Source: Clostridiales bacterium
GTDB taxonomy: Bacteria; Bacillota; Clostridia; Saccharofermentanales; Saccharofermentanaceae
Length of the DNA: 64,000 nt
Reading direction: 5' to 3'
Assembly (NCBI GenBank): GCA_017551865.1
Contig: JAFZKB010000027.1
Coordinates: 186,001 to 250,000, forward strand
Shown here: positions 1 to 40,824 of the stretch, piece by piece
How positions within the stretch are numbered: the first letter of the stretch is position 1
Layout: each line of letters begins with the position of its first letter
The notes under the pieces: model-generated
What the model saw: the letters and a program-made list of their open reading frames with translations, nothing else
Told to the model about the DNA's origin: nothing
Database searches by the model: none
Translations under genes and position numbers: made by a program

Positions 1-774
1 TCCAAGGTATTTTTTCTGACCGTTTCTCAAAGAATAAACAAAGTATCTGCTTAAATTGTCCAATTTCGGTTCATCCCAGGAAATCATTACTTCATTTTTA
101 CTTTTGTTACCATGAGGTTCAGCCTTAAGATTCATCGGGCTGGCATTGACAAGAAAATCTGCAATAGAAGAGATTCCTCCTTCGCTGCTGATGGCAAAGA
201 CCAAATTCTCCACGGTGTCGGATGAACCGGAAACGGCTTTCTTTCCCCAGGCAAGACTGCCATCCGAATTAAACGAAAGACAAAGCGTCATTATCCCGCT
301 ATCAGGATCAAGCGTAAAGTCCGAAGCGTGGAATACTGTAGCGGTTGGAATCACATTACTGCCATCCGTAATGGGTTGCATCGTCCGGATGGCTACATTA
401 TCCCTAACATGGATCGTATATGTAGATCCTTCGATCGAGAAGCCCTTATACGCATTTTGAATAAGGAAAAATGCTTTCAAATCCTCTCGTGGTTTGAAAT
501 ACATATTCCCGAACACCTCATTGATGGGAGCATAATCCGATGAGACTTCCGAGCAGTAAAGACAATGACGAACGACATTTCCCTGCTCATCTGTGTACTC
601 TTCGCCCCAATAATGCTCATGATTCATTCTTTTTAACTGATCAATAGTATCCTGGTTCGTCTGATCATCAATTCTGCGTAATCCACTCGCAAAAATGCAT
701 GTCGCCGGAACGATAGTGGTCAACATAACGATTGACAGAAAACTACTTAACAGTTTCTTAAATACTGGTTTCAT
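1..774 (-). CDS. Secreted protein with Fn3-like module, C-terminus outside window
   Basis: The start ATG is at 774 and the frame is still open at base 1, so at least 258 residues are present and the C-terminus is missing. Residues about 5-30 form a signal peptide (Lys-containing start, then a hydrophobic run). An H-E-H-Y-W motif and a CLYC pair follow, then a beta-rich domain of about 140 residues. The beginning of an Fn3-like module (YFVYSLRNGQKKYLG) is last and matches modules in the genes at 916, 4535 and 9345. The N-terminal domain aligns by eye with those of 916-2106 and 9345-10538 but is the most diverged. GGGAGG lies 7 bases before the ATG. It has its own ECF-type promoter element at 860-889. 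The function is unknown; an extracellular or surface role is inferred. Confidence 0.85.
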   Translation of the reverse strand, partial: MKPVFKKLLSSFLSIVMLTTIVPATCIFASGLRRIDDQTNQDTIDQLKRMNHEHYWGEEYTDEQGNVVRHCLYCSEVSSDYAPINEVFGNMYFKPREDLKAFFLIQNAYKGFSIEGSTYTIHVRDNVAIRTMQPITDGSNVIPTATVFHASDFTLDPDSGIMTLCLSFNSDGSLAWGKKAVSGSSDTVENLVFAISSEGGISSIADFLVNASPMNLKAEPHGNKSKNEVMISWDEPKLDNLSRYFVYSLRNGQKKYLG

Positions 775-859
775 AAAAACACCTCCCAATTATCTCGCTA
801 TGCCATAATGCTCTTCCGTGTGTTACTTTGCCGTCTGTCCGGCGATGTCTTTCACTATG

Positions 860-889
860 TATATCAATAAACAAATGCTTGTCGCTACA
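860..889 (-). promoter_or_regulatory. ECF-type promoter element A
   Basis: Read on the minus strand this is TGTAGCGA, 16 bases, GATATA. The same two blocks with the same spacing occur at 4300-4329 (before the ECF sigma gene) and 10892-10921. The A/T-rich flank upstream (CATATGAGA and ATTTGTA-like) is shared with the element at 4300. It lies about 85 bases before the ATG at 774. Recognition by the local ECF sigma factor is inferred from this sharing. Confidence 0.65.
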
Positions 890-915
890 CGATTTTACAA
901 ATCTCATATGTCGAA

Positions 916-2106
916 CTACTTCAGTGCGCGTCCATAGGTATATTTCGCCGTCTGTCCGACGATCATCTTCCCGTTACTGTCTTTAAAGTACGGGAATACC
1001 CAGTAATAGTTATACTCTGTTGAAGACGCCGCCTTATCCGTAAATGTCGTTCCCTTGGTCGTCATACCGACGTATGCATATGCTTTTCCGTCCACGATCC
1101 CGTAAACGAGATAACCCTCAGCTCCCATCACCTTGTCCCAGGTAAGTTTTACCCCACCTTTTACAGATGAAGCTTTAAGATTAGCTGCAGCTGGAAGTCC
1201 GCCTTTTGCATATACATAGTTCGGGCATTTTCCAACACGCATTTTCCCGGATGCATCTTTGATATATGGAAATACCCAGTAATAGTTATACTCTCCGGCA
1301 ATGGCTTTTGTATCAGTGAACGTTGCACCTTGAGTCGTAATTCCTGCATAACCGTAAGTACCATTCTTCAGACCATATACAAGGTATCCTTGTGCATCGG
1401 AAGAAGGCGTCCACGAAAGCTTTACCTGATTTGCGCCGCCGGGCACAGCTTTGAGTCCCTCTGTTTTCAGATGCAAAAGAATATTGGAGATAGCATAGCC
1501 GGTCATTTCCGAATCAGATTCTTTACACCAATATGTAATCGGTGCAATTCCTCCGCTATTAGAAATATAGAAGCGCAAACTGTAAAACCATGAACAATCC
1601 CCTGGCTGATATGGAACTTCATCCCATCCCATCACAAGACTCCCATCAAAACCGACATTTACACACAAAATTTTATTGGTTCCGTCATCGTTGACAAAAT
1701 CAGACGCATGGATCGGTGTTCCAGCTTCTACCATTTCGGTTCCCATCCGATAAGATTTACTTGGAGTTATGACCGAGTCTTCTGTCAGATAGATTAAAAT
1801 CATCATTTCAAGAAGAGAAACTCCCTTATGCACATTCGTTAATGTGAATGTAATATCAGGAATTCTGTAATACGGCTCAAAACAGACACTGTCAAGAACT
1901 TCATTTAGAACTGGCGGATGCTCTGTCGTAAATGCATTGCAACCCGGATCTTCACAGTACCATCCGCTTAAATCTGTTGCTCTCGCCCATACATGATCGT
2001 GATCTTCTTCCTTGTCCGCCATTAGGCCGGAAGCAGGAAGACAGGATATCGTCAAAGCCAAAATCAATAATATCGAAACGGCTCTTTTCTTCAACAAACA
2101 CCTCAT
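916..2106 (-). CDS. Secreted protein with two C-terminal Fn3-like modules
   Basis: The start at 2106 is chosen because AGGAGGG sits 7 bases upstream and the N-terminus then aligns with the paralogue at 10538; an in-frame ATG at 2124 overlaps the preceding stop and has no such site. A signal peptide (about residues 1-30) is followed by an H-D-H-V-W motif and a CEDPGC pair, a beta-rich domain of about 150 residues, and two Fn3-like modules, each with YLVYG, VGMTT/GITT, FTD and YYWVFPY motifs. The protein ends in YGRALK. There is no LPXTG motif, SLH domain or other known anchor. It is the third gene behind the ECF sigma and anti-sigma genes, so it is probably co-transcribed with them. Function unknown; the paralogues suggest a duplicated extracellular protein family. 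Confidence 0.85.
   Translation of the reverse strand: MRCLLKKRAVSILLILALTISCLPASGLMADKEEDHDHVWARATDLSGWYCEDPGCNAFTTEHPPVLNEVLDSVCFEPYYRIPDITFTLTNVHKGVSLLEMMILIYLTEDSVITPSKSYRMGTEMVEAGTPIHASDFVNDDGTNKILCVNVGFDGSLVMGWDEVPYQPGDCSWFYSLRFYISNSGGIAPITYWCKESDSEMTGYAISNILLHLKTEGLKAVPGGANQVKLSWTPSSDAQGYLVYGLKNGTYGYAGITTQGATFTDTKAIAGEYNYYWVFPYIKDASGKMRVGKCPNYVYAKGGLPAAANLKASSVKGGVKLTWDKVMGAEGYLVYGIVDGKAYAYVGMTTKGTTFTDKAASSTEYNYYWVFPYFKDSNGKMIVGQTAKYTYGRALK
919..1461 (-). repeat. Fn3-like double-module coding block, copy 1
   Basis: This segment encodes the two C-terminal Fn3-like modules. It is recognisably similar at DNA level to 4538-5090 and 9348-9890 (for example the stretch covering YTYGRAL and the KDSNGKM region), which suggests fairly recent duplication or gene conversion among neighbours. 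Boundaries are approximate. Confidence 0.6.
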
Positions 2107-2123
2107 ATTCGTCCCTCCTGCCA

Positions 2124-3677
2124 TTATTGGGACAAAAGAATCGATTCCAATTCTCTCATCTTGTCTAATGTCATATCAAAGAAACCATTAAATGCTGAAT
2201 AAGTGCGGGAGACCGGTGAATAATGAATACGGATCCGGTACCCTTCTCTTACCTCAATAACAAAAGTCAGCGATCCTTTTTTCCATAAGGCATCCGCAAA
2301 TTCCTTAATTTCTGATAATTCGTACTTTTTCTGTTCTGTTTCAACTTCCGAAGACTTTCCTGTGCTTTGAGAAGCAATAGTGTTTGTCACAGAATCCGTA
2401 GTCGTCTCAGAAGGGACTTCTGTAATTGTTCCCTCATTAACTTCCGTAGTCGTCTCAGAAGTTGGTTCTTCAGTTACTTCTCCAGAGATTTTCTCCGTTT
2501 CTTCCTTGGACGATTCACTAATCATCTCTTCGGGTACTTCAGCAGCGGTTTCCTCAGCAGATTCCGTGACCGGTTCCGCATTCATTTCCGAAATTGACTC
2601 TAAAGTGGTTTCAGAAGCAAATTCAGTAGTCGATGCTGAAGATTCTTCTGTGGTCATTTCCGTAGTTATTTCATCAGTTGTTTCCATGATCACATCTGCC
2701 GTTGTCTCAACAATCACTTCAGATGATTCATCCGCAGTTGTTTCCGTAGTTTGCTCAATAGACACTTCCGTAGTCTCTTCCACAGTCGTTTCTGTTGTTA
2801 GCTCTGTGGGCACATCAGTAGTCACATCCGTGCTCGTTTCCGTGGATATTTCCGCAGCGGTTTCTGTGGCAGGGTAAAAGGCTTCCGGCCGATAAGAAAT
2901 CAGCCCAGTGCTCTCATCCACATATACTGCATCATTTCCATATTGCTCTTTCCAAGCTTCCACCAGTCGCCGATTATTCTCAGTAAGTCCAATGTTCGTA
3001 CATTTATTGAGAAGGTCGATAACTTTTTCAATTCTATCCATATCTGTAATCGTATGGATCAGCTGATCATCATTGTCATAAACTTCAATTTTGATGCCTT
3101 TTTCTGGTAATCCGTACTTCGTAAAAATGGAATTTGACAGGTCTCCCTCTTCGAATTCGATCTCATACCCGATCGTTGAAATGAAGGAATACCTATCGTC
3201 TTCCTCAAGGATGAGTATGGAGGAGTTCTCCGGATACTTCGAATAATGATACACTTTTCTTCCGACGTCATTTCCGTTTTCATCATCTTTGGTACCAGTC
3301 ACCACACCCGCGTATTCTCCAATGTCTTCTTTTGTTATGACTTCATCATCCAGATTTTCAGGCAGACCATAACGAATTCGATCTTCCGCATTCGCTAAGC
3401 CGACATAGACAAGATCGTCCTGATAATCTATAAAGAGCATGCGCGAGGAAGAGTATTCTTTTCTGTTACGGATCTCTAACTGATTATCCTTCGTCCTCTT
3501 CATCAACCCGGCGTTTACCAGAAGAAGGGATGCAGCCGCTACAGCAAGTCCAACAACGGAGGTGACAACTATCTTAATTCGTGTCTCCTTCCTCTTATGT
3601 ATTTCTGGAATATCTGATTCAATGATAAGATCAGGATCTATATCCGCCATTTTATTCAATAGATCTTTTCCGTTCAT
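2124..3677 (-). CDS. Membrane anti-sigma factor with Thr/Glu-rich stalk
   Basis: The 517-residue protein is encoded directly after the ECF sigma gene with a 4-base ATGA overlap, the usual layout of a sigma/anti-sigma pair. Residues 1-33 are a short cytoplasmic segment (ADIDPDLI), which would bind the sigma factor. Residues 34-57 are a single membrane helix. Residues about 60-275 form a folded-looking outer domain. Residues about 276-440 are almost entirely Thr, Glu, Ser and Val in short TTE-type repeats, a mucin-like stalk. The last 70 residues form a small mixed domain. No HxxxCxxC zinc anti-sigma motif is present, so the assignment rests on position, topology and length. The layout resembles RsgI-type sensors with extracellular modules, but the partner is an ECF factor and not SigI. 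The outside signal is unknown. Confidence 0.75.
   Translation of the reverse strand: MNGKDLLNKMADIDPDLIIESDIPEIHKRKETRIKIVVTSVVGLAVAAASLLLVNAGLMKRTKDNQLEIRNRKEYSSSRMLFIDYQDDLVYVGLANAEDRIRYGLPENLDDEVITKEDIGEYAGVVTGTKDDENGNDVGRKVYHYSKYPENSSILILEEDDRYSFISTIGYEIEFEEGDLSNSIFTKYGLPEKGIKIEVYDNDDQLIHTITDMDRIEKVIDLLNKCTNIGLTENNRRLVEAWKEQYGNDAVYVDESTGLISYRPEAFYPATETAAEISTETSTDVTTDVPTELTTETTVEETTEVSIEQTTETTADESSEVIVETTADVIMETTDEITTEMTTEESSASTTEFASETTLESISEMNAEPVTESAEETAAEVPEEMISESSKEETEKISGEVTEEPTSETTTEVNEGTITEVPSETTTDSVTNTIASQSTGKSSEVETEQKKYELSEIKEFADALWKKGSLTFVIEVREGYRIRIHYSPVSRTYSAFNGFFDMTLDKMRELESILLSQ
2385..2880 (-). repeat. Degenerate Thr/Glu-codon repeat tract
   Basis: The tract is built from many diverged copies of ACN/GAR-rich units within the anti-sigma gene. 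A 19-base exact repeat occurs at 2395-2413 and 2443-2461. Such tracts can change length by slippage. The open frame on the opposite strand here is a by-product of the repeat. Confidence 0.6.
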
Positions 3678-4255
3678 AATAATTCCCTCCGCTCAAGGTA
3701 CTGATGAAGATCCTTCCTCATACGAGTAAGAAGTGTCCTAACCGTACTTTCCTTCATATCCAATCGTTTTGCTATCGTCTCCATCTTATCAAGGTAGTAA
3801 TAACGTCTCATGAATACCAATCGTTTTTTAGGCGGCTGCTCCTTTAGAAATTTCCCTATCTCTTCTATCAAAAGATCCTCATCTATCTTGTTTTCAACAG
3901 AGATAGAAGAAGCTATACACTGTTCCATTTCCGAAGTCAATTCAGAAATAAACGCAAATCTCTTCAGTCTGCGGTCCCTTACACAACGATTGATAGAAAT
4001 CGTTCGAACGATCCTGGACAAGAAGGCAAGCAGATAGGTTCTCGGCTCATGTGGAGGAATTCTGTTCCATGCCTCCATATATGTGTCATTCTCACACTCT
4101 TCTGCCGTCTGCGTATTTTCAGTGATTCCGTAAGCGATACTCCGGATACGCGCACCATATTTAGCAGATACAATTTTGATCGCTTCTTCCTCGCGATTCA
4201 GGAACATATCTACGATACTGCTGTCATCACTATTTAATACTTTGTCTATTCTCAT
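3674..4255 (-). CDS. ECF-type RNA polymerase sigma factor
   Basis: The 193-residue sigma-70 family protein shows region 2 (about residues 25-95, with a motif around CENDTYMEAWNRIP) and region 4 with a helix-turn-helix (about residues 140-190, around MESTVRTLL-like KESTVRTLLTRMRKDL). Region 3 is absent, as in ECF factors. The stop overlaps the start of the anti-sigma gene by 4 bases. The start is uncertain: ATG at 4255 is preferred, but an in-frame TTG at 4264 is possible and neither has a clear Shine-Dalgarno site. The promoter element at 4300-4329 is one of three near-identical copies in the locus, so autoregulation is likely. The probable regulon is the neighbouring secreted proteins. Confidence 0.88.
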   Translation of the reverse strand: MRIDKVLNSDDSSIVDMFLNREEEAIKIVSAKYGARIRSIAYGITENTQTAEECENDTYMEAWNRIPPHEPRTYLLAFLSRIVRTISINRCVRDRRLKRFAFISELTSEMEQCIASSISVENKIDEDLLIEEIGKFLKEQPPKKRLVFMRRYYYLDKMETIAKRLDMKESTVRTLLTRMRKDLHQYLERRELL

Positions 4256-4299
4256 CTCGTTCAAATCATTTTTGACAGTCGACGATGTCTTTTAATATA

Positions 4300-4329
4300 T
4301 ATATCAATAAATATTATCTCGTCGCTACA
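4300..4329 (-). promoter_or_regulatory. ECF-type promoter element B (sigma operon)
   Basis: On the minus strand this is TGTAGCGA, 16 bases, GATATA, preceded by CATATGAGA and an ATTTGTA block shared with element A. It sits about 45 bases before the sigma start codon. Identity of both blocks and of the spacing with elements A and C supports a single dedicated sigma factor. Confidence 0.7.
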
Positions 4330-4458
4330 TGGTTATACAAATTCTCATATGTTCAATAATACCAAAGGCTGAACCAATACCGCAAACTGCGGATACAAAC
4401 CATGTCTTGATCTATCCATCAGTTAAGTGAAAGGAACTTGAGACACAACAAATCAGAA

Positions 4459-4498
4459 AAAACTTCCGTGAAATACAAATTGATAACACGGAAGTTTT
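4459..4498 (-). terminator. Rho-independent terminator after the LRR gene
   Basis: Inverted repeat AAAACTTCCGTG / CACGGAAGTTTT with a 16-base loop, 37 bases past the stop of the gene at 4535. The A-rich left side gives a U-rich tail on the minus-strand transcript. Confidence 0.7.
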
Positions 4499-4534
4499 AC
4501 TATTTCTTTATGTGCCCTTTAAATAAGACGATGC

Positions 4535-7468
4535 TTACAGCGCCCTTCCATAGGTATATTTTCCCGTCTGACCGACAACCATCTTCCCATTACTGTCCTT
4601 AAAGTAGGGATAGACCCAGTAGTAGTTGAACTGTGTTGTAGATGCCGTTTTATCCGTAAAAGAAGTTCCCTGTGTCGTCATACCTACATAAGCATAGGAC
4701 TTGCCTGCTACAATACCATATACCAGATATCCTTCTGCTCCAGTTACCGCATCCCAGGTAAGTTTCACTCCGCCCTTCACAGATGCGGCTTTCAGATTTG
4801 CTGCAGCAGGGCATATTCCCTTGGCAAAGACGTATTTCGTACAGGATCCCGGAAACATCTTACCAGTACTGTCTTTAACATACGGGAATACCCAGTAGTA
4901 ATTGTAATCGGAATAGATCGCTTTTGTATCGGTAAACGTTGTTCCCTGAGTCGTCATGCCCACATAACTATACTTACCGTTTTTCTGACCATAGATAAGA
5001 TACCCTTCTACTCCGGCACTTCCCTTCCAGGTCAGTTTGACTCTTTCCTTTCCTGCCGCTGTTGCTGTGAGATTCGTCACGGCTGAAGGCGCCGTAGTCT
5101 TCTTCCATACAGCATAGAAGGTCAGATTTCTGGATACGGTATACACTGTTCCCGCATGATATTGGGCAGTCGTCGCATCACTGGTCCTTGCCCATCCCAG
5201 GAAGGTATATCCGGTCTTCTCAGGGGAGATGGCTTCAATGGTAAACTTTTCACCATCAGCTGCCCACTCATAGAACACAGCCGGAGCTGTAGAGGATAAC
5301 TTGTATTCAATTTTATACGCTTTGTTATATGGAATCCAACCGCTTTGGCCAATCTGAGACGGATCGCTTGCCCACTTATCGGACGGATAATATATCTTAC
5401 TATCGTTATCAAGAGCAATGATTCCTCTTACGCCGAAGAAATCCTCATCACTTTGCCTGGTAGGACCACAAAGAAGCAGTATTCGTATCCTATCACCAGA
5501 GAAAGTATAACCACTTATTGAAATAACACTTTCAGGAATGGTAATTCTCTTTAATGATGTGCATGAAGCAAAACAGCTTTCACCCAATATCTTAAGCCCC
5601 TCAGGTAAGGAAATCCGAGAAAGGGAATTACACCCGAAAAACGCCGCTTCCCCCAGTTCTTTTACACCTGTAGGGATTGCAATCTGATTGATACCTGTTT
5701 TGGCAAAACAGTATACTCCCAAGGTTACATCTTCATGCTCGAAAGAATCCGGCATATTTACCTCGGTCAAAGAATTACAGTCGAAAAATGCATAACCCAG
5801 AATACTAGTTACGGTGGAAGGAATCGTGATGCTCTTTAACGACGTGCAGTTCGAGAAAGTTCTGGAGTGAATCGATGTCAATTGGTTAGACATTATTACT
5901 TTTTCCAACGAACTACATCCACAAAAAGCGGAGTGACCTATTTCTGTTACACTATCTGGTATTGTAACAGATTTCAGAGCTGTACATCCCATAAAAGCAC
6001 TCTCGCCAATTTCAGTAACACTTCCCGGGAAAGATATACTGGATAGAGATTCACAAGCATAGAACGATTGGTTGCCAATCTTAGTAACGCCATTTGATAT
6101 AGAGACCGAGGAAAGGGAAAAGCACTGTTTAAACACGCCCTCCGAGATCTCTGCAACTCCAGATGGTATCGTAATTTTCTTGAAAGAGCATTTGGCAAAT
6201 GCATTCGCACCTATGCTCTTAAGTCCATTGGGAAATACCGGATCCGGTAACGCGGGACAGTTCCAAAAAGCTGCTTCCCCGATACTTTCCAAAGATGCAG
6301 GCCATGTGAAGGATTTTAAAGCCGTACAATCAATAAAAGCATTATTTCCAATATTTTTAACAGAAGACGGCAGAGCCAACGATTGAAGAGATGTACATCC
6401 CTGAAACGCCCTTGCCCCAATCGTCTCCATTGTATTTGGAAGTATTACAGTCTTCAATTTCGTGCAATTCTGAAAAGATTCGCCTGGTAACTCTGTCGCT
6501 GTCCCCTTGATTGTTACTTTTGTTAAATTACTGCAACCAGAAAAAAGGGCATTCCCCAATCTTGTGATATTATCCGGTATAACTATTTCAGTTAGATTTG
6601 TGCAACCTCTGAAAGGAGCATAAAACTTCGTAACATGGGAAGGGATCTCAAATGAAGTCAATCCCGTACAGCCGAAAAAGATACCGTCATTCATGACAGT
6701 AACCTTTGGCGGAATCGTATATGTCTTTAAACCCTTACAATTAGCAAAAGCCAAAATTTCAATCGTTTCAACACTTTGCGGAAGATCAATTGAAGTAAGA
6801 CCAGTACATCCGGAGAAAGCCGCTTGGCCTATCGTCTTTAAACCGGAAGGCAAGGTGATAGATGTAAGTCCAGTACATCCAGAAAACACGCCTTTCCCTA
6901 ATGTCTGCAAACCAGAAGGAAGAGTCACTGAAGTCAACCCGCTGCAACCAAAGAATACAGTAGTTTTTAACTCGGTTAATGGAGCTTGAATAGAAACAGA
7001 CTTTAGTCCTGTACACTGATAAAAGGCCGCATCATCTATATTGTTCAGACTTTCTGGAAAGTTTATGGAAGTAATCGACGAATCTCTAAATGCAAACTGA
7101 CCAATCGTTGTTATGGTAGATGGAAGTGTCACACTTCCGAGAGCGGTACAGGAAGTAAAAGCATATTTGCCTATTGAGGTTGCACCTGAATTTACAATGA
7201 TTCTCTTAATACTAAGCCGGTATTCTTTCCATGGTCTCGAATCATTATACACAGTATTATTTATATATGTAAAATTATAATCATTCATGCTTCCAGTTCC
7301 GGATATGGTCAAAGTCCCTTCACTGTCAATAGTCCAGGTGAGAGAATCCCCGCAGGTGCCTGAATCAACAATAGATGCCGCAAATACTTTATTCGTCGGA
7401 TTCAATAAGACAACCGCAATCATCAAACCCAATATTACAGTAGATATGGAGATAAGCTTTCTCATCAT
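4535..7468 (-). CDS. BspA-like leucine-rich repeat surface protein
   Basis: The 977-residue secreted protein has a signal peptide ending near VFA (residues 1-30). About 25 LRR_5-type repeats of roughly 23 residues follow (pattern: LPxxLxxIGxxAFxGCxxLxxI), up to about residue 640. Next is a segment of about 80 residues resembling the Listeria-Bacteroides repeat (Flg_new), with GYTFLGWA and FYAVWKK motifs. Two Fn3-like modules ending in YGRAL complete it. BspA-type LRR proteins are known adhesins or host-binding proteins; here this is inferred. The ribosome site AAAGGAG is just upstream and two adjacent ATG codons are possible starts. It follows the NlpC/P60 gene by 30 bases, so the two are probably one operon. 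A terminator lies at 4459-4498. Confidence 0.9.
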   Translation of the reverse strand: MMRKLISISTVILGLMIAVVLLNPTNKVFAASIVDSGTCGDSLTWTIDSEGTLTISGTGSMNDYNFTYINNTVYNDSRPWKEYRLSIKRIIVNSGATSIGKYAFTSCTALGSVTLPSTITTIGQFAFRDSSITSINFPESLNNIDDAAFYQCTGLKSVSIQAPLTELKTTVFFGCSGLTSVTLPSGLQTLGKGVFSGCTGLTSITLPSGLKTIGQAAFSGCTGLTSIDLPQSVETIEILAFANCKGLKTYTIPPKVTVMNDGIFFGCTGLTSFEIPSHVTKFYAPFRGCTNLTEIVIPDNITRLGNALFSGCSNLTKVTIKGTATELPGESFQNCTKLKTVILPNTMETIGARAFQGCTSLQSLALPSSVKNIGNNAFIDCTALKSFTWPASLESIGEAAFWNCPALPDPVFPNGLKSIGANAFAKCSFKKITIPSGVAEISEGVFKQCFSLSSVSISNGVTKIGNQSFYACESLSSISFPGSVTEIGESAFMGCTALKSVTIPDSVTEIGHSAFCGCSSLEKVIMSNQLTSIHSRTFSNCTSLKSITIPSTVTSILGYAFFDCNSLTEVNMPDSFEHEDVTLGVYCFAKTGINQIAIPTGVKELGEAAFFGCNSLSRISLPEGLKILGESCFASCTSLKRITIPESVISISGYTFSGDRIRILLLCGPTRQSDEDFFGVRGIIALDNDSKIYYPSDKWASDPSQIGQSGWIPYNKAYKIEYKLSSTAPAVFYEWAADGEKFTIEAISPEKTGYTFLGWARTSDATTAQYHAGTVYTVSRNLTFYAVWKKTTAPSAVTNLTATAAGKERVKLTWKGSAGVEGYLIYGQKNGKYSYVGMTTQGTTFTDTKAIYSDYNYYWVFPYVKDSTGKMFPGSCTKYVFAKGICPAAANLKAASVKGGVKLTWDAVTGAEGYLVYGIVAGKSYAYVGMTTQGTSFTDKTASTTQFNYYWVYPYFKDSNGKMVVGQTGKYTYGRAL
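4538..5090 (-). repeat. Fn3-like double-module coding block, copy 2
   Basis: This encodes the two C-terminal Fn3-like modules of the LRR protein, with clear nucleotide similarity to 919-1461 and 9348-9890. Boundaries are approximate. Confidence 0.6.
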
Positions 7469-7498
7469 TCATTCTCCTTTCCAAAATCAGAATAGCCA

Positions 7499-9070
7499 TT
7501 AATGAGCATATCCGTTTACTTCTTCAGAAACAACACCTGGAACAACATTCCCACTTTCATAGAAAAACGGGAATACCCAATACCGGTTCAATTGTGTGGT
7601 AGATGCTAAAGTGTCAATATAATTCGTGTTAAGATACAGAGAAGTCATAGCAATAAGTCCATACGGAGCTCCATTGTGGTATCCATATATAAGGTAACCA
7701 TCAGCATCAGACTTTACCGACCAATCCAATCTTATTGACCCTAGTTGCTCTGTTAGCACAAGATCTTGGACAGCTGTACACACACCCGCCGCAGATACCA
7801 TTACACTCACGCTTCCTGGATACATTGTACCTCCATAATCAGTAACAAAAGGAAATACATAGTAATCATTTGTGCCTGACAAAGCGTTAATATCAGTGAA
7901 ACTTCCTACATAATTATCATTTATCAAGGTTGTTCCGTAAGTAATTCCACAATATCCATATACACCATTCTTTCTGGCATAGATCAGGTATCCATCTGTA
8001 TACCTGTTCCCTGTCCAGGTCAAAGAAACCTTGTATTTTCCTGCTGGACTTGCCTGAAGATCTGTTACAGAAGGAAGTGTAACATCCTCATTGATCAAAC
8101 GGACATATTTATAGATCTGAAGTCCGTTCATCTGCCGGATATCCCCTACAATAACTCCGCTTACCGTGTTATTCATTGCCGCTTCGATCACTTGCCCGTT
8201 TCCGATATAGATAGCCGTGTGATGAACTCCTTTGTAATGATCGCAGTTGTTTAAAAACGGACAGTTAGCATGATTTGCTGCACAATCTGCGTTATACCAG
8301 TAGATAATGTCACCCGGAAGCATGTCTGATTCATAATCAAGGTACTCCGGTGTCATAGCCAGATTGGAATTGTTATATGCACAGATCCCGTTTTCAAAAT
8401 CCTGGACTTGTCTGTCTGAACCCGCTCTCTGACGGACACCAAGGGCAGTAAGATACACATATTGTACAAATGAACCACAGGAAAATGTTTGTGGTGGTTC
8501 AGCATACAGTGCATATGGTTTTCCGATTTGGGAAAATGCTTCCAAAAGTATCTTCACTCGCCGGGTATTGGCATACCCCGTTTGCGCTGCAATGGATGTC
8601 ACCTTGTAGTCAGATCCAAAGGTAAAGACTATATGCTCATATGTAAGTGTCGTGTTACAGTATCTTACATTTGTGACCGGATCCGTATAGTAAATATCAC
8701 TTCCGATAGAAAAGAAACCTGTCGGATCTGTTCGTGGCGGATCGACAGTATCATACTGGTCTTTCCATCCGTCTTTTGGTGTTTGCTCCTGATATCTTTC
8801 GTATTCCTCCTGATATCCTTCACGAAGGATCTCTTCATCCGAAAGATGTTCAGATGTATCGACATTGCGGTCAGGATCAAGTTCTGTTTCATCAAAATCT
8901 TCTAAAAATTGAAGAAGCTTCTGATTAAGATCAGGATCGATCTCATTACCTTGAGTAGAACCCGGACGATTCTGATCACCTGAGTTATTCCCATCTGCGA
9001 CCAGTGATGAACCTATAACAGAAACCACAAGAAGTCCGGCAAGCAATGAGGTTATTATCCGTCTATTCAT
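7499..9070 (-). CDS. Secreted NlpC/P60 peptidase with Fn3-like modules
   Basis: The 523-residue protein has a signal peptide (about residues 1-25), an acidic Asp/Glu-rich linker (about 40-105), an NlpC/P60 cysteine peptidase domain (about 165-325) and two diverged Fn3-like modules. The catalytic Cys is C198 in FSCGSFVQYV and the His is H284 in GVHHTAIYIG. NlpC/P60 enzymes cut peptide bonds in peptidoglycan stem peptides. The domain is unusual in carrying a Cys-rich insertion around residues 263-276 (CAANHANC and CDHYK). AGGTGA precedes the ATG. It is the first gene of a two-gene unit with the LRR protein. The upstream region has only a weak resemblance to the ECF promoter element. Confidence 0.85.
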   Translation of the reverse strand: MNRRIITSLLAGLLVVSVIGSSLVADGNNSGDQNRPGSTQGNEIDPDLNQKLLQFLEDFDETELDPDRNVDTSEHLSDEEILREGYQEEYERYQEQTPKDGWKDQYDTVDPPRTDPTGFFSIGSDIYYTDPVTNVRYCNTTLTYEHIVFTFGSDYKVTSIAAQTGYANTRRVKILLEAFSQIGKPYALYAEPPQTFSCGSFVQYVYLTALGVRQRAGSDRQVQDFENGICAYNNSNLAMTPEYLDYESDMLPGDIIYWYNADCAANHANCPFLNNCDHYKGVHHTAIYIGNGQVIEAAMNNTVSGVIVGDIRQMNGLQIYKYVRLINEDVTLPSVTDLQASPAGKYKVSLTWTGNRYTDGYLIYARKNGVYGYCGITYGTTLINDNYVGSFTDINALSGTNDYYVFPFVTDYGGTMYPGSVSVMVSAAGVCTAVQDLVLTEQLGSIRLDWSVKSDADGYLIYGYHNGAPYGLIAMTSLYLNTNYIDTLASTTQLNRYWVFPFFYESGNVVPGVVSEEVNGYAH

Positions 9071-9266
9071 GCAATCACCTATACCCTTTCCAATAAAATG
9101 CCCAGTCTATAAATTCAATATATATTGATAGTATTTCATGCGCAACAAAGCAAGCATATTGTTTACATTTTTGAAACATATATAAGGTGACAAACACATC
9201 GCGAAACAAATTGATGCAATTCATTTGTTAATCAAACCATTACATCATCTATCTGTTTCTATCAAA

Positions 9267-9310
9267 GAAAACCTTCCGTGATACCAGGAGGCGGATCACA
9301 GAAGGTTTTC
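9267..9310 (-). terminator. Rho-independent terminator
   Basis: Inverted repeat GAAAACCTTC / GAAGGTTTTC, extended inside by CGTGAT / ATCACA, located 35 bases after the stop of the gene at 9345. The minus-strand transcript continues into a U-rich stretch. Confidence 0.7.
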
Positions 9311-9344
9311 TATACTAGTTCTAAACTCTTTCTTATGTGATTTA

Positions 9345-10538
9345 TTACAGCGCTCTTCCGTAGATATACTTTCCTGTCTGGCCGACAACCATCTTCCCAT
9401 TTGCATCTTTAAAGTACGGGAATACCCAGTAGTAATTATATACAGTCGATGATGCTGTCTTATCCGTAAAAGTCGTTCCCAGAGTCGTCATTCCGACGTA
9501 TCCGTATGGTTTTCCGGCAACAATGCCATATACCAGATATCCATCTGCACCAGTTACTGCATCCCATGTAAGCTTCACGCCACCCCTTACAGAAGCGGCT
9601 TTCAGATTAGATGCTGCAGGAAGGCCTCCTTTGGCATATACATAGTTCTGACATTTACCAGTACGCATTTTTCCGGATGCATCTTTGATATATGGGAATA
9701 CCCAATAGAAGTTATACTCTCCGGCAACAGCTTTTGAATCTGTAAACGCCGTTCCCTGGGTCGTCATGCCCACATAACCGTAAGAACCGCCGTTCTTCAC
9801 ACCATATACAAGGTATCCTTGTGCTCCAGAAGAAGCAGGCCAAGACAGTTTTACCTGATTGGCTCCACCTGTCACTGCTTTGACACTCTCTGTCTTTAAC
9901 TGTTCAAGACACTGGAACATTCCAGCTCTCGACAATTCCGACTCGGAGTTTTTGCACCAATATGTGATCGGAGCAATACCACCAGTCGATGAGATATGGA
10001 AACTCCAGGAATAATAATCTAAATAATCTCCTGCCTGATAGGGGTCTTCATCCCATCCCATCACAAGGCTACCATCAATCCCGACATTTAGACACAGGGT
10101 CTTAAAAGATCCATCTGTTTTTGTAAATTGAGATGCATAGATAGGAGTTCCTGCCTCATACATTTCATTATCAAGACGATATACTTTACTGGGTGTAATG
10201 ACCGAGTTTTCCGTCAAAGCGACTGATAGAGACATTTCTCCAATTGATGCGCCTTTAAACACATTTGTTATTGTAAAAGTCACATCAGGAAGTTTGAAAT
10301 ATGGTGCGACACAGACACTGTCAAGAACCTCATTTAACGCTGGAGGTGTTTCAGTCGTAAAGGCATCACAGTCCGGATCATTACAGAACCATCCGCTCAG
10401 ATCTGTCGTTCTTCCCCATACATGTTCATGCTCTTCCCCACCTTCGTCTGCAATCAAGCCAGCAGCCGGAATACAGGATATCATCAGAGCCAAAACCACA
10501 AATAGCGAAAAGACTTTTTTCTTCAACAATGTTTTCAT
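9345..10538 (-). CDS. Secreted protein with two C-terminal Fn3-like modules, paralogue of 916-2106
   Basis: The 397-residue protein has a signal peptide (about residues 1-30), an H-E-H-V-W motif and CNDPDC pair, the same beta-rich domain as 916-2106, and two Fn3-like modules ending in YGRAL. It aligns with 916-2106 along its entire length. AGGGGG lies 8 bases before the ATG. The ATG overlaps by 4 bases (ATGA) the stop of an upstream broken reading frame (10535-10800). Its promoter is probably the ECF element at 10892-10921, about 350 bases upstream. A terminator follows at 9267-9310. Function unknown; extracellular. Confidence 0.87.
   Translation of the reverse strand: MKTLLKKKVFSLFVVLALMISCIPAAGLIADEGGEEHEHVWGRTTDLSGWFCNDPDCDAFTTETPPALNEVLDSVCVAPYFKLPDVTFTITNVFKGASIGEMSLSVALTENSVITPSKVYRLDNEMYEAGTPIYASQFTKTDGSFKTLCLNVGIDGSLVMGWDEDPYQAGDYLDYYSWSFHISSTGGIAPITYWCKNSESELSRAGMFQCLEQLKTESVKAVTGGANQVKLSWPASSGAQGYLVYGVKNGGSYGYVGMTTQGTAFTDSKAVAGEYNFYWVFPYIKDASGKMRTGKCQNYVYAKGGLPAASNLKAASVRGGVKLTWDAVTGADGYLVYGIVAGKPYGYVGMTTLGTTFTDKTASSTVYNYYWVFPYFKDANGKMVVGQTGKYIYGRAL
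9348..9890 (-). repeat. Fn3-like double-module coding block, copy 3
   Basis: This encodes the two C-terminal Fn3-like modules and is similar at DNA level to 919-1461 and 4538-5090. Boundaries are approximate. Confidence 0.6.
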
Positions 10539-10800
10539 TTTTTGATCCCCCTTTTTTGAAATCTAATTACTATCCCTAGCGCTCCATTTCGGTCAGATTT
10601 ATAAACATTTTTGTTCTCTAATCCAGTATTCATGAGGGTGAATACGTAGTGACCTTTTGTTTCCCCAGTCTTGTATGGCTCAGAAGCTTCGTTATCCGAA
10701 GTGATGTGCGAAGGCGAAAACGTTCTGCAAGGAGAAGCAGCGCCACAAGGAATAATGAAATTAAACCCTTTACTTTTTTCACGTAATTCTTTCTCTTCAT
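10535..10800 (-). pseudogene. Possible frameshifted small secreted protein gene
   Basis: ATG at 10800, 5 bases after GGGGG, opens a 56-codon frame that begins like a signal peptide (MKRKNYVKKVKGLISLFLVA) and stops at 10630. After the signal peptide its sequence becomes Arg-rich and implausible. A second frame through the same DNA stays open to a TGA at 10535-10537, which overlaps the ATG of the next gene as ATGA. That tail looks more protein-like (FSPSHITSDNEASEPYK) but has no start codon. One frameshift near 10715 would join signal peptide and tail into a protein of about 88 residues. No homologue is recognised. It may equally be a short leader region. Confidence 0.35.
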
Positions 10801-10891
10801 ATCGTACCCCCTATTTATTCGGATAACAGGATCGATCCTATATCACCCGTTTTGTCCATAATGCTTTTGAGTCACTATGCCGTGTACTTAA

Positions 10892-10921
10892 TATATCAAC
10901 AAAATTTATCACTTCGCTACA
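10892..10921 (-). promoter_or_regulatory. ECF-type promoter element C
   Basis: On the minus strand this is TGTAGCGA, 16 bases, GATATA, as at 860-889 and 4300-4329. It lies about 90 bases before the broken small frame at 10800 and 354 bases before the ATG at 10538, with no other obvious promoter in between. Confidence 0.65.
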
Positions 10922-10982
10922 TGTTTTTTGAAAAATTTATATTTGTTCAAAATTGATTCGAAAGAAACGTATCAGGAGAAAA

Positions 10983-11008
10983 AAAGGACAGTCTTTCGAC
11001 TGTCCTTT
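10983..11008 (-). terminator. Terminator of the rpsB-tsf operon
   Basis: Perfect 10-base stem AAAGGACAGT / ACTGTCCTTT with a 6-base loop (CTTTCG), followed on the minus strand by TTTTTCTCC. It lies 21 bases past the tsf stop. Confidence 0.85.
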
Positions 11009-11029
11009 GAAAAGCATAGTTAAAACAAA

Positions 11030-11956
11030 TTACTTGATCTGCTTCATGACTTCTTCAGCGAAGTTCTCTTCCTTCTTGGCAATACCTTCGCCCATTTCGA
11101 AACGTGTGAAACGACGGATGGAAACGTTCTGGCCGAACTCCTTCGTGTATTGTGCGATCGACTTTGTGTCATCCTTAACGAACTCCTGCTCTACGAGGCA
11201 GTTCTCCTTATAGAACTTCTCGATGTTACCCGGAAGGATTCTTTCCTTGATGATCTTCTCCGGCTTACCTTCGTTGAGGTTCTTGTTGATGATGATCTCT
11301 TTTTCCTTCTCAAGATCAGCTTCCGGAACATCCTCACGTGTGAGCCACTTCGGGTTCGCAGCAGCAACCTGCATAGCGATATCCTTCGCAAAATCAGCGA
11401 ACTTGGACTCTGTGATGATGGAATCATCATCTGTGCCAAACTCTACGAATACACCGATCTTACCGCCCATGTGGATGTAAGAAGCAACCGCACCGTTGCC
11501 TTCTACTTCATATACTACGAATCTTCTGATAGAAGTATTCTCTCCGATATCGGCAATAGCTTCCTTCTGGAAGAGTTCTACTGTCTTGGAATCATCATTA
11601 TAAAGTGTCTGAGCCATCAGTTCTTCAACATTAGCCGGCTTCTTTGCAAGAATGTGAGAAGCAACAGCATCTGTGAAAGCCTTGAATTTATCTGTGTTCG
11701 CAGCAAAGTCTGTCTCGATGTTGATCTCAACGAGAACACCAGACTTCTTGTCATCAGCGATCTTGGCAACTACAGCACCTTCTGCAGCAACTCTTGCGGA
11801 CTTCTTCTCTGCCTTGGCAATACCCTTCTCACGGAGCCATGCAACCGCCTTCTCGATATCACCTTCAGATTCCTGAAGAGCTCTTTTACAATCCATAATA
11901 CCGGAACCTGTCATGTCACGAAGTTCCTTGACCTGTGCAGCACTAATTTCAGCCAT
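11030..11956 (-). CDS. tsf: Translation elongation factor Ts
   Basis: The 308-residue protein recycles EF-Tu by exchanging GDP. The N-terminal UBA-like segment (VKELRDMTGSGIMDCKRAL, residues about 9-27) and the TDFAANTDKF motif are diagnostic of EF-Ts. Start ATG at 11956 is preceded by GGAGG; the in-frame GTG 15 bases earlier lies across that site and is rejected. It directly follows rpsB, the conserved pairing in bacteria, and ends at a strong terminator (10983-11008). Confidence 0.97.
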   Translation of the reverse strand: MAEISAAQVKELRDMTGSGIMDCKRALQESEGDIEKAVAWLREKGIAKAEKKSARVAAEGAVVAKIADDKKSGVLVEINIETDFAANTDKFKAFTDAVASHILAKKPANVEELMAQTLYNDDSKTVELFQKEAIADIGENTSIRRFVVYEVEGNGAVASYIHMGGKIGVFVEFGTDDDSIITESKFADFAKDIAMQVAAANPKWLTREDVPEADLEKEKEIIINKNLNEGKPEKIIKERILPGNIEKFYKENCLVEQEFVKDDTKSIAQYTKEFGQNVSIRRFTRFEMGEGIAKKEENFAEEVMKQIK

Positions 11957-12021
11957 TGTTATTTCCTCCACTAATTTATTGATGAATAGTTTGAATTGAT
12001 TCTTTTGAAAAGAACCGGAGA

Positions 12022-33740: not shown

Positions 33741-34475
33741 ATGGACGGATCTTTACCAAAAGAAGGCGCATCTGTTCGCGTCAATAAGTACATCAGTTCC
33801 AGCGGTTTCTGTTCGCGAAGAAAAGCCGATGAATATGTTGAAGGCGGCGCCGTCACGATCGACGGTATCCCCGCGGTCTCCGGCTCCCAGGTCTTCCCAG
33901 GGCAGATCGTCCGTGTCAACGGCAAAGTCGTCCTTCCGACCGACGACCACATTTATCTTGCTTTTCACAAACCTCTGGGGATCACCTGTACAACAGACAA
34001 GAGAGATAAAGACAACATCATTGACTACATCGGATATCCGGAACGGATCTTCCCGATCGGGCGTCTTGATAAGAACTCTACAGGACTGATCCTTCTTACA
34101 AATGACGGTGATATCGTTAACCGGCTCCTTCGCGCTGAGGGCCGCCACGATAAAGAATATGTCGTCACGGTAGATAAGCCAGTAAATGACGAATTCAAAA
34201 AGCAGATGGAGGGCGGACTTCCGATCCTCGATACCGTGACTCTCCCCTGCAAAGTGAAACTTACATCGAAGAACACTTTCCACATTATCCTGAACCAGGG
34301 CTTAAACCGCCAGATCCGCCGAATGTGCGAGTATCTGGGATACAGGGTAGTTAAGCTGAAAAGGATCCGTATCCTCAACATCTCTCTGGGCTCTCTTCCC
34401 GTCGGACAGTACAGGGAGCTCACGGCGAAGGAAAGATCTGATCTCTTCTCCATTCTTGATAAAAACAGGAAATGA
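33741..34475 (+). CDS. RluF/RsuA-like pseudouridine synthase
   Basis: The 244-residue protein has an N-terminal S4 RNA-binding domain (about residues 12-60; VNKYISSSGFCSRRKADEY) and a pseudouridine synthase domain with GRLDKNSTGLILLTNDG, nucleophile D110. The fit is best with the RluF branch, which modifies 23S rRNA, but RluB/RsuA cannot be excluded. It starts 12 bases after the histidine kinase stop and probably shares its transcript. Confidence 0.9.
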   Translation: MDGSLPKEGASVRVNKYISSSGFCSRRKADEYVEGGAVTIDGIPAVSGSQVFPGQIVRVNGKVVLPTDDHIYLAFHKPLGITCTTDKRDKDNIIDYIGYPERIFPIGRLDKNSTGLILLTNDGDIVNRLLRAEGRHDKEYVVTVDKPVNDEFKKQMEGGLPILDTVTLPCKVKLTSKNTFHIILNQGLNRQIRRMCEYLGYRVVKLKRIRILNISLGSLPVGQYRELTAKERSDLFSILDKNRK

Positions 34476-40445: not shown

Positions 40446-40824
40446 GGGGGCGCACTGGTTTCGACGGGGTCGTGGAGACTGGGAAAGCGGGTAGAGGATT
40501 CTCGTTGGCCTCTTTAAAAAACGAGAACTGCAAGTAATTGCAAACAACAATCAACTCGTAGCTGCTTAATTTAGCTACCATCTCCCCGGTCTATCTGTCG
40601 GCCGGACCGGAGATGTAAGATGACAGACCTTACCTGTCGGCAGGTTAAACGGGACAACGTCTTTGGCAAAGCTTTGCGTCACTGATGTATCTATGAAGCT
40701 ACCGGAGTCAGCTTCCTGTTCGTGGGATCGCCGATGAGGGGAATACTCCATACACGAACTGCACCCGGAGATGTCCTTGTTAACGTGGTTTCGGACAGGA
40801 GTTCGATTCTCCTCGCCTCCACCA
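40446..40824 (+). ncRNA. ssrA: Transfer-messenger RNA
   Basis: The RNA rescues stalled ribosomes. The 5' end GGGGGCG pairs with CGCCTCC before the encoded ACCA at 40821-40824 (one G-U pair). The T-loop GTTCGATTC is present, and GCACTGGTTTCGACGGGG is the tmRNA 5' signature. The tag frame runs 40540-40569 with resume codon GCA and encodes ANNNQLVAA, ending TAA. Length is 379 bases, as usual. A terminator follows at 40839-40875. Confidence 0.97.

Follow-up and report, generated by a model that had tools for sequence, protein, structure and literature searches.

The window analysed here, a stretch of 64,000 nt, opens with a cluster of surface-protein genes that is flanked by tsf (11030–11971) on one side and, on the other, by a mutase-like gene with pyrH and frr beyond it. 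The genes tsf and pyrH/frr are usually close neighbours; both here and in the sister genome G021, the cluster (window positions 1–11030 and G000:C26 183282–185403) sits between them. Farther along, the window also contains a tmRNA gene with the tag ANNNQLVAA (40446–40824, plus strand). The features of the cluster, including three short repeated elements, are listed below.

1–774, minus: gene for a secreted Fn3 protein behind element 1; extends past the window to G000:C26:185581
848–889, minus: element 1, predicted promoter before the Fn3 gene at 774, with all three blocks (..TGATATACATAGTGAAAG); expected start near 853
916–2124, minus: gene for a secreted twin-Fn3 protein, third in the sigma operon, starting at the stop of the candidate anti-sigma gene
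2124–3677, minus: candidate anti-sigma gene, 517 aa; inner peptide MNGKDLLNKMADIDPDLI.., one membrane span and outer parts
3674–4264, minus: ECF sigma factor gene, 196 aa; start at TTG 4264 or ATG 4255
4288–4329, minus: element 2, predicted sigma operon promoter, TGTAGC-N17-TGATAT, with a degenerate third block (ATATTAAAAG); expected start near 4293
4459–4498, minus: terminator-like hairpin between the LRR gene and element 2 (z −5.7)
4535–7468, minus: gene for a secreted BspA-type LRR protein with a twin-Fn3 C-terminus (PF13306, 686.7 bits), behind the NlpC gene
7499–9070, minus: gene for a secreted NlpC/P60 protein with a diverged Fn3 pair (PF00877, 32.8 bits)
9119–9147, minus: weak fourth promoter candidate before the NlpC gene, TGTTGC-N17-TATATA; boxes and spacing also in G021
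9262–9310, minus: terminator-like hairpin after the gene at 9345–10538 (z −7.1)
9345–10538, minus: gene for a secreted twin-Fn3 protein behind element 3 and a small ORF, recognized by module model and fold search
10630–10800, minus: conserved 56-codon ORF (MKRKNYVKKVKGLISLFLVALLLLAERF..), the first frame behind element 3, with the ribosome site AGGGGG
10880–10921, minus: element 3, weaker promoter candidate 3' of the tsf terminator, without the third block; expected start near 10885
10983–11008, minus: tsf terminator, upstream limit of the element 3 unit (z −5.5)

The hairpins after tsf, after the gene at 10538 and after the LRR gene divide the cluster into three units. The first comprises element 3, the small ORF and the Fn3 gene at 10538, the second the NlpC and LRR genes, and the third element 2 with the sigma gene, the candidate anti-sigma gene and the Fn3 gene at 2124; no clear terminator lies before element 1 and the gene at 774. 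The latter has the ribosome site GGGAGGTG upstream of its ATG, and its Fn3 module could be aligned (L078). The distance to the following ribosome site or ORF is 86 nt after element 1 and 91 nt after element 3. The 56-codon ORF encodes a hydrophobic segment and has a good ribosome site, and 9 of its 11 differences from G021 fall on third codon positions.

The twin-Fn3 C-terminal module, about 180 aa in length, has 67 matches in this genome and 82 in G021; beyond these two species, only two others among 188 genomes of the order contain it. In the window, such modules lie at 9348–9899, 922–1470, 4538–5074 and 7505–8062 (minus strand), carried by secreted proteins whose N-terminal portions differ (LRR, NlpC and other). 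By sequence, the module has no match to the Pfam Fn3 family, with GH85_C near its cut-off and an Fn3-like match to 3mpc at an E-value of 0.0026. Its structural model has a mean pLDDT of 93.9, and the best PDB matches in a fold search are Fn3 tandems (E ~1e-8; TM-scores for the pair of 0.3–0.5). The module looks like a lineage-specific surface-attachment tag.

The three elements match TGTAGCGA-N16-GATATA without a mismatch at 860–889, 4300–4329 and 10892–10921, all on the minus strand, and the next-best match in the window has two mismatches. The initial annotation had described their identical blocks and spacing, and had placed one element before the ECF sigma operon, one before the gene at 774 and one before the transcript entering 10538. 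These placements hold: element 2 lies before the sigma gene, element 1 before the gene at 774 and element 3 at 354 nt before 10538, with the conserved 56-codon ORF in between. In the whole genome (2,726,129 bases or 2.73 Mb in 35 contigs, 94% complete), exact copies number three, all in the window, while the reversed-pattern control yields none. The motif is therefore not spread at random, an outcome that would have spoken against a dedicated regulon, but confined to one cluster. When up to two mismatches are allowed, 21 matches in the genome face 19 in the control, so that no dispersed set of weaker copies is apparent. An extended three-block pattern (up to three mismatches) gives four matches in the genome versus none in the control; elements 1, 2 and 3 differ from it at 0, 2 and 3 positions, respectively, and the fourth match lies on contig C17.

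The similarity between the elements is not limited to their blocks. In BLASTN comparisons within the cluster, 840–911 and 4280–4352, which contain elements 1 and 2, are 81% identical over 73 nt, and 4270–4356 and 10865–10950, which contain elements 2 and 3, are 73% identical over 89 nt. By these alignments, the three elements are products of duplication, and common descent partly explains their identical blocks and spacing. Since the similarity reaches 73–89 nt, identical blocks alone are weak evidence of function, and elements 1 and 3 might be passive duplicates. In G021, elements are found at the orthologous places. The orthologue of element 1 retains blocks and spacing with an altered spacer, and the counterpart of element 2, upstream of the orthologous gene, has one mismatch. 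Element 3 is identical, as is most of the DNA around it, so that its conservation alone says little.

A stronger test than repeats within one cluster is provided by distant relatives, whose sigma genes are preceded by the same element. Expectation-maximisation on 32 non-redundant upstream regions of homologues from the same order recovered TGTRAC-N17-TGATAT-N4-AGGGTGAAAG (log-likelihood ratio 358; 137–145 for shuffled sequences) and picked element 2 as the site in the window. Applied to 78 external loci free of redundancy, which come from named Clostridia (Lachnospiraceae, Oscillospiraceae and others) and include none of this genome, the same procedure yielded TGTAACC-N16-(T/C)G(C/A)TATA-TAGGGTGAAGGCCTTT (log-likelihood ratio 948; shuffled 144–156). 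Among about 128,000 positions in the window, the matrix from these 78 loci ranks element 1 second, element 2 third and element 3 eighth; with a genus matrix from which this species and G021 were left out, they come first, second and fourth. Element 3 is the weakest of the three by these measures. The top window site of the external matrix, with a score of 14.3, is 33804–33845 on the plus strand. The NlpC/P60 gene forms a transcription unit of its own without a convincing element: the external matrix scores −10 upstream of it, and the fourth promoter that had been considered there (9147–9119) was demoted to a weak candidate.

The combination of AAC in the −35 box and CGT in the −10 box, an early hallmark of ECF promoters (group 4; PMC8103513), is not found here: the homologues have AAC and (T/C)G(C/A)T, and the window has AGC and TGAT. 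At the −35 box, this cluster reads AGC, whereas all 79 of 79 compared homologues read AAC. Later updates limit the ECF-defining features to domain content (PMC8103513).

The sigma factor itself matches TIGR02937 (sigma70-ECF) with 54.9 bits (cut-off 42.9), Pfam Sigma70_r2 with 24.4 bits (cut-off 24) and Sigma70_r4_2 with 25.5 bits (cut-off 25.7), and its best sequence match in the PDB is SigW (5wuq). At least 587 relatives were confirmed in one scan, in gut and rumen Clostridia, and we found no description of this ECF family in the literature searched. The same genome encodes four paralogous sigma/anti-sigma pairs (L007, L008, L009 and L010; 59, 57, 49 and 36% identical), whose self-promoters differ, and the sigma/anti-sigma pair on contig C30 adjoins a divergent gene for a secreted twin-Fn3 LRR protein.

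Across 79 homologues, excluding this species and G021, promoter bases co-vary with residues of the sigma factor. In the −10 box, the first base has residue 92 as its strongest partner (T accompanies N, C accompanies D), and base three is paired with residue 88. In the −35 box, residue 177 is linked to bases three and four, and residue 176 to the base that follows the box. By alignment, residues 88–99 belong to region 2.4 and residues 174–181 to the recognition helix of region 4.2. Residue 92 corresponds to the D of DXXR, a motif in which mutagenesis of Thermoanaerobacter tengcongensis RpoE1 has shown this position to read −12G (PMC3397946). The pairs in the window, N92/T, T88/A, T177/T and A, and R176/G, match the rules learned without it. 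The co-variation scores are inflated by shared ancestry, but ancestry alone would not explain why the top partners of both boxes fall in the expected DNA-contact regions. Since the bases of the element co-vary with residues of regions 2.4 and 4.2, this sigma family very probably reads elements of the type of elements 1–3. With the unsupervised motif, the external and genus matrices and the co-variation in agreement, the proposal that the sigma operon has its own ECF promoter is borne out at the sequence level; that all three elements are ECF-type promoters appears well supported, and the predicted autoregulation of the sigma gene strongly so.

The gene following the sigma gene encodes the candidate anti-sigma factor and overlaps it by 4 nt, as is likewise the case in most of 80 homologous operons. 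Most of these also share the plan of the partner, i.e. a short inner peptide, one membrane span and a variable outside. The product of 2124–3677 matches no Pfam, NCBIfam or PHROG family; on the outer side, it has a folded domain, a Thr/Glu-rich stalk of about 170 aa and a C-terminal domain, and its folded outer parts are shared with the partner at locus L126. Among the candidate anti-sigmas encoded after sigma genes (L104–L182), an inner peptide of about 25 residues is common, with the approximate consensus M-x-G-x-[ED]-L-L-[DE]-x-[IM]-x-x-I-D-x-x-[YL]-[IV]-x-E-A, while the outer domains are unrelated and include a serpin (L157), a beta-propeller (L109), DUF3160 (L142) and DUF6273 (L177). In the window protein and most homologues, an inner part of at most 39 residues precedes a single membrane span and a large outer domain. 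This topology has a demonstrated precedent in T. tengcongensis TolB, whose 39-residue inner part binds its sigma factor and likewise leads into a single span with a large domain outside (PMC3397946). By analogy, we infer that the product of 2124–3677 binds the sigma factor.

A third block, TGAAGGCCTT, lies downstream of the −10 box at the expected start site. With a transcription start 13 nt away from where the −10 box begins, as in T. tengcongensis RpoE1 (PMC3397946), it would span about −3 to +10. In the 78 external loci, the block shows a degree of conservation similar to that of the −35 and −10 boxes, and its distance from the −10 box is constant in 50 of 66 loci, including five with a shifted −35 spacing. 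It is not the ribosome site of the gene, given that its distance to the start codon varies (standard deviation 14.6) while that to the −10 box is fixed. Nor is a role in RNA structure indicated: 52 leaders fold little better than their shuffles (mean z −0.47), which favours a role at the DNA level. Reading of the block by the sigma factor was likewise set aside, because the residues with which it co-varies (58, 91 and 156) are scattered. In the external loci, the block is a near-palindrome, with on average 4.27 of 6 pairs in the best arrangement (2.91 in shuffled sequences, maximum 3.19). In the window, its left half is kept in element 1, degenerate in element 2 and absent from element 3. From these patterns, a start-site operator or an initiation element would be its likeliest role.

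How far the regulon extends can be judged from the other loci with the same modules. Genome-wide pattern searches found the element absent from about 60 other twin-Fn3 loci, and for 20 further loci with the module, of which about 17 yielded a gene start, the upstream regions contain nothing near the scores of elements 1 and 2. In the external loci, all matrix matches above 20 bits except one precede either the sigma gene itself or another, second sigma gene, and the exceptional match is not followed by an ORF. In the other clusters of the genus that were examined, the element occurs at the sigma gene only, and its presence at non-sigma genes is particular to this species and G021. The lack of copies elsewhere in the genome and the bare Fn3 loci indicate a local regulon. 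Of the dedicated surface-protein regulon proposed in the initial annotation, one part stands, namely elements 1 and 3 as putative promoters within the cluster, kept in G021; an extension beyond the cluster finds no counterpart in these data. In this reduced form, i.e. as one local cluster common to one sister species, the regulon is supported by the sequence comparisons, and the label of secreted Fn3-module proteins fits three of its products.

We consider it likely, with a probability of about 80%, that elements 1–3 are promoters of the ECF sigma factor encoded at 3674–4264, which would be held by its membrane partner, activate its own synthesis and serve a regulon restricted to the cluster. 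At rest, the single-span membrane protein encoded at 2124–3677 would tether the sigma factor via its short inner peptide, until a signal from outside frees it. RNA polymerase bearing this sigma factor would then read TGTAGC-N17-TGATAT, with region 4.2 on the −35 box and region 2.4 on the −10 box. Via element 2, this would result in positive feedback on the operon of sigma factor, anti-sigma factor and secreted Fn3 protein; via element 1, it would turn on the secreted Fn3 gene at 774 and, less surely, via element 3 the small ORF and the secreted Fn3 gene at 10538. Such a regulon may have been built by duplication of a promoter segment of about 75–90 nt beside duplicated Fn3 genes. This reading is supported by the identity of the elements, their fit to the family-wide promoter, the co-variation, the local restriction and the conservation of operon and topology. 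Points that tell against it are the AGC in the −35 box, which sets the cluster apart from all 79 homologues, the missing third block of element 3 and the confinement of the element to sigma genes in other genomes.

The extended similarity around all three elements, the loss of the third block from element 3 and the confinement of the element to the sigma gene in other genomes would also suit a scenario in which element 2 is the only working sigma promoter, with elements 1 and 3 as duplication leftovers without a regulatory role. We regard this as unlikely, given that element 1 fits the family promoter better than element 2 and has kept blocks and spacing in G021 despite a changed spacer, and that ribosome sites with secreted-protein or conserved ORFs follow elements 1 and 3 at 86 and 91 nt. 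Much less probable still is a regulon that reaches through looser sites to many other Fn3-module genes. The common C-terminal module of these proteins would fit such a regulon, as would the degenerate candidate with conserved spacing before the NlpC gene in both species. However, the upstream regions of the 20 other Fn3 loci come nowhere near the scores of elements 1 and 2, and, outside the three elements, the genome yields no more matches than the control, for which reason a relaxed pattern was dropped as a route to a wider regulon. The least credible reading takes the elements for housekeeping sigma promoters with an extended −10 box (TGATATAT) and the sigma operon as not autoregulated. It could appeal to the likeness of TG-A-TATATA to an extended −10 box and to the missing AAC triad in the −35 box of the cluster, but a scan for the sigma-70 consensus returns none of these elements, GCT or GAT in the −10 box and AAC in the −35 box track the sigma family, and the promoter bases co-vary with the DNA-contact residues of its members.

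Concerning the start-site block, it could be the operator of a separate DNA-binding regulator, such that control by the sigma factor would be only half of the switch. Its near-palindromic character above shuffles in the external loci, its locked distance from the −10 box, the scarcity of RNA structure and the want of a clear co-variation partner in the sigma factor are in line with this idea, which we nevertheless hold to be rather improbable: this genus retains the left half only, element 3 has no block, no linked regulator gene was seen, and a preference of the polymerase in initiation would explain the block equally well. More broadly, we tentatively suggest, as a possibility somewhat short of even odds, that self-promoters of this ECF family carry a third element, the near-palindrome TGAAGGCCTTTCA at a fixed distance from the −10 box, which would act as an operator for a second regulator or as an initiation element that gates the feedback, and that the partners are modular sensors in which a sigma-holding peptide of about 25 residues is combined with interchangeable outer domains. 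Neither the start-site block nor the anti-sigma design of a short peptide and a swappable sensor was described in the literature searched. These two features could constitute the novelty of the system, a claim that could fall if the 2021 ECF classification already describes them.

Under the preferred reading, with all three elements as promoters of the local sigma factor, three short repeats lead to a predicted sigma–promoter code for an ECF family that is large, widespread in gut and rumen Clostridia and apparently uncharacterized, in which residues 88, 92, 176 and 177 of the sigma factor predict promoter bases. They also suggest a route by which a surface-protein regulon may arise, namely the copying of the promoter of a self-controlled sigma factor beside neighbouring genes.

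Several known systems invite comparison. Like B. subtilis SigW, the sigma factor of the window consists of sigma-2 and sigma-4 domains only and has a linked membrane partner and a predicted self-promoter. Unlike canonical ECF systems such as SigW, it is paired with a candidate anti-sigma that has a very short inner peptide, and with a start-site block; the −10 box reads GCT or GAT instead of the canonical CGT, and the −35 box of the cluster AGC instead of AAC. SigI/RsgI of cellulolytic clostridia comprise several self-controlled paralogous sigma factors, membrane anti-sigmas with a varied outer part and extracellular targets (PMC6056542). The present system resembles them in having several paralogous pairs of sigma factor and membrane partner per genome, variable outer parts and extracellular proteins. 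However, SigI is devoid of a sigma-4 domain, the presence of which in the window sigma factor sets it apart from the SigI/RsgI family, and a Pfam search of its partner revealed no RsgI domain. The autoregulated Firmicute ECF factor RpoE1 of T. tengcongensis, with TolB as its adjacent partner gene, has a promoter of −35 tGTTAC, −10 CGTC and a spacer of N16, and its transcription begins at a G located 39 nt ahead of the start codon (PMC3397946). With this pair, the window system shares the predicted self-promoter, a similar −35 box, the partner topology and a link between residue 92 of region 2.4 and the −10 box, a likeness of topology and promoter features. It differs in the (T/C)G(C/A)T and N17 of its sigma family, in the third block, for which the text consulted gives no equivalent, and in its local surface-protein regulon. 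By analogy, the system would work like autoregulated ECF/anti-sigma pairs, with the T. tengcongensis pair as its closest counterpart and SigI/RsgI as its parallel at the system level.
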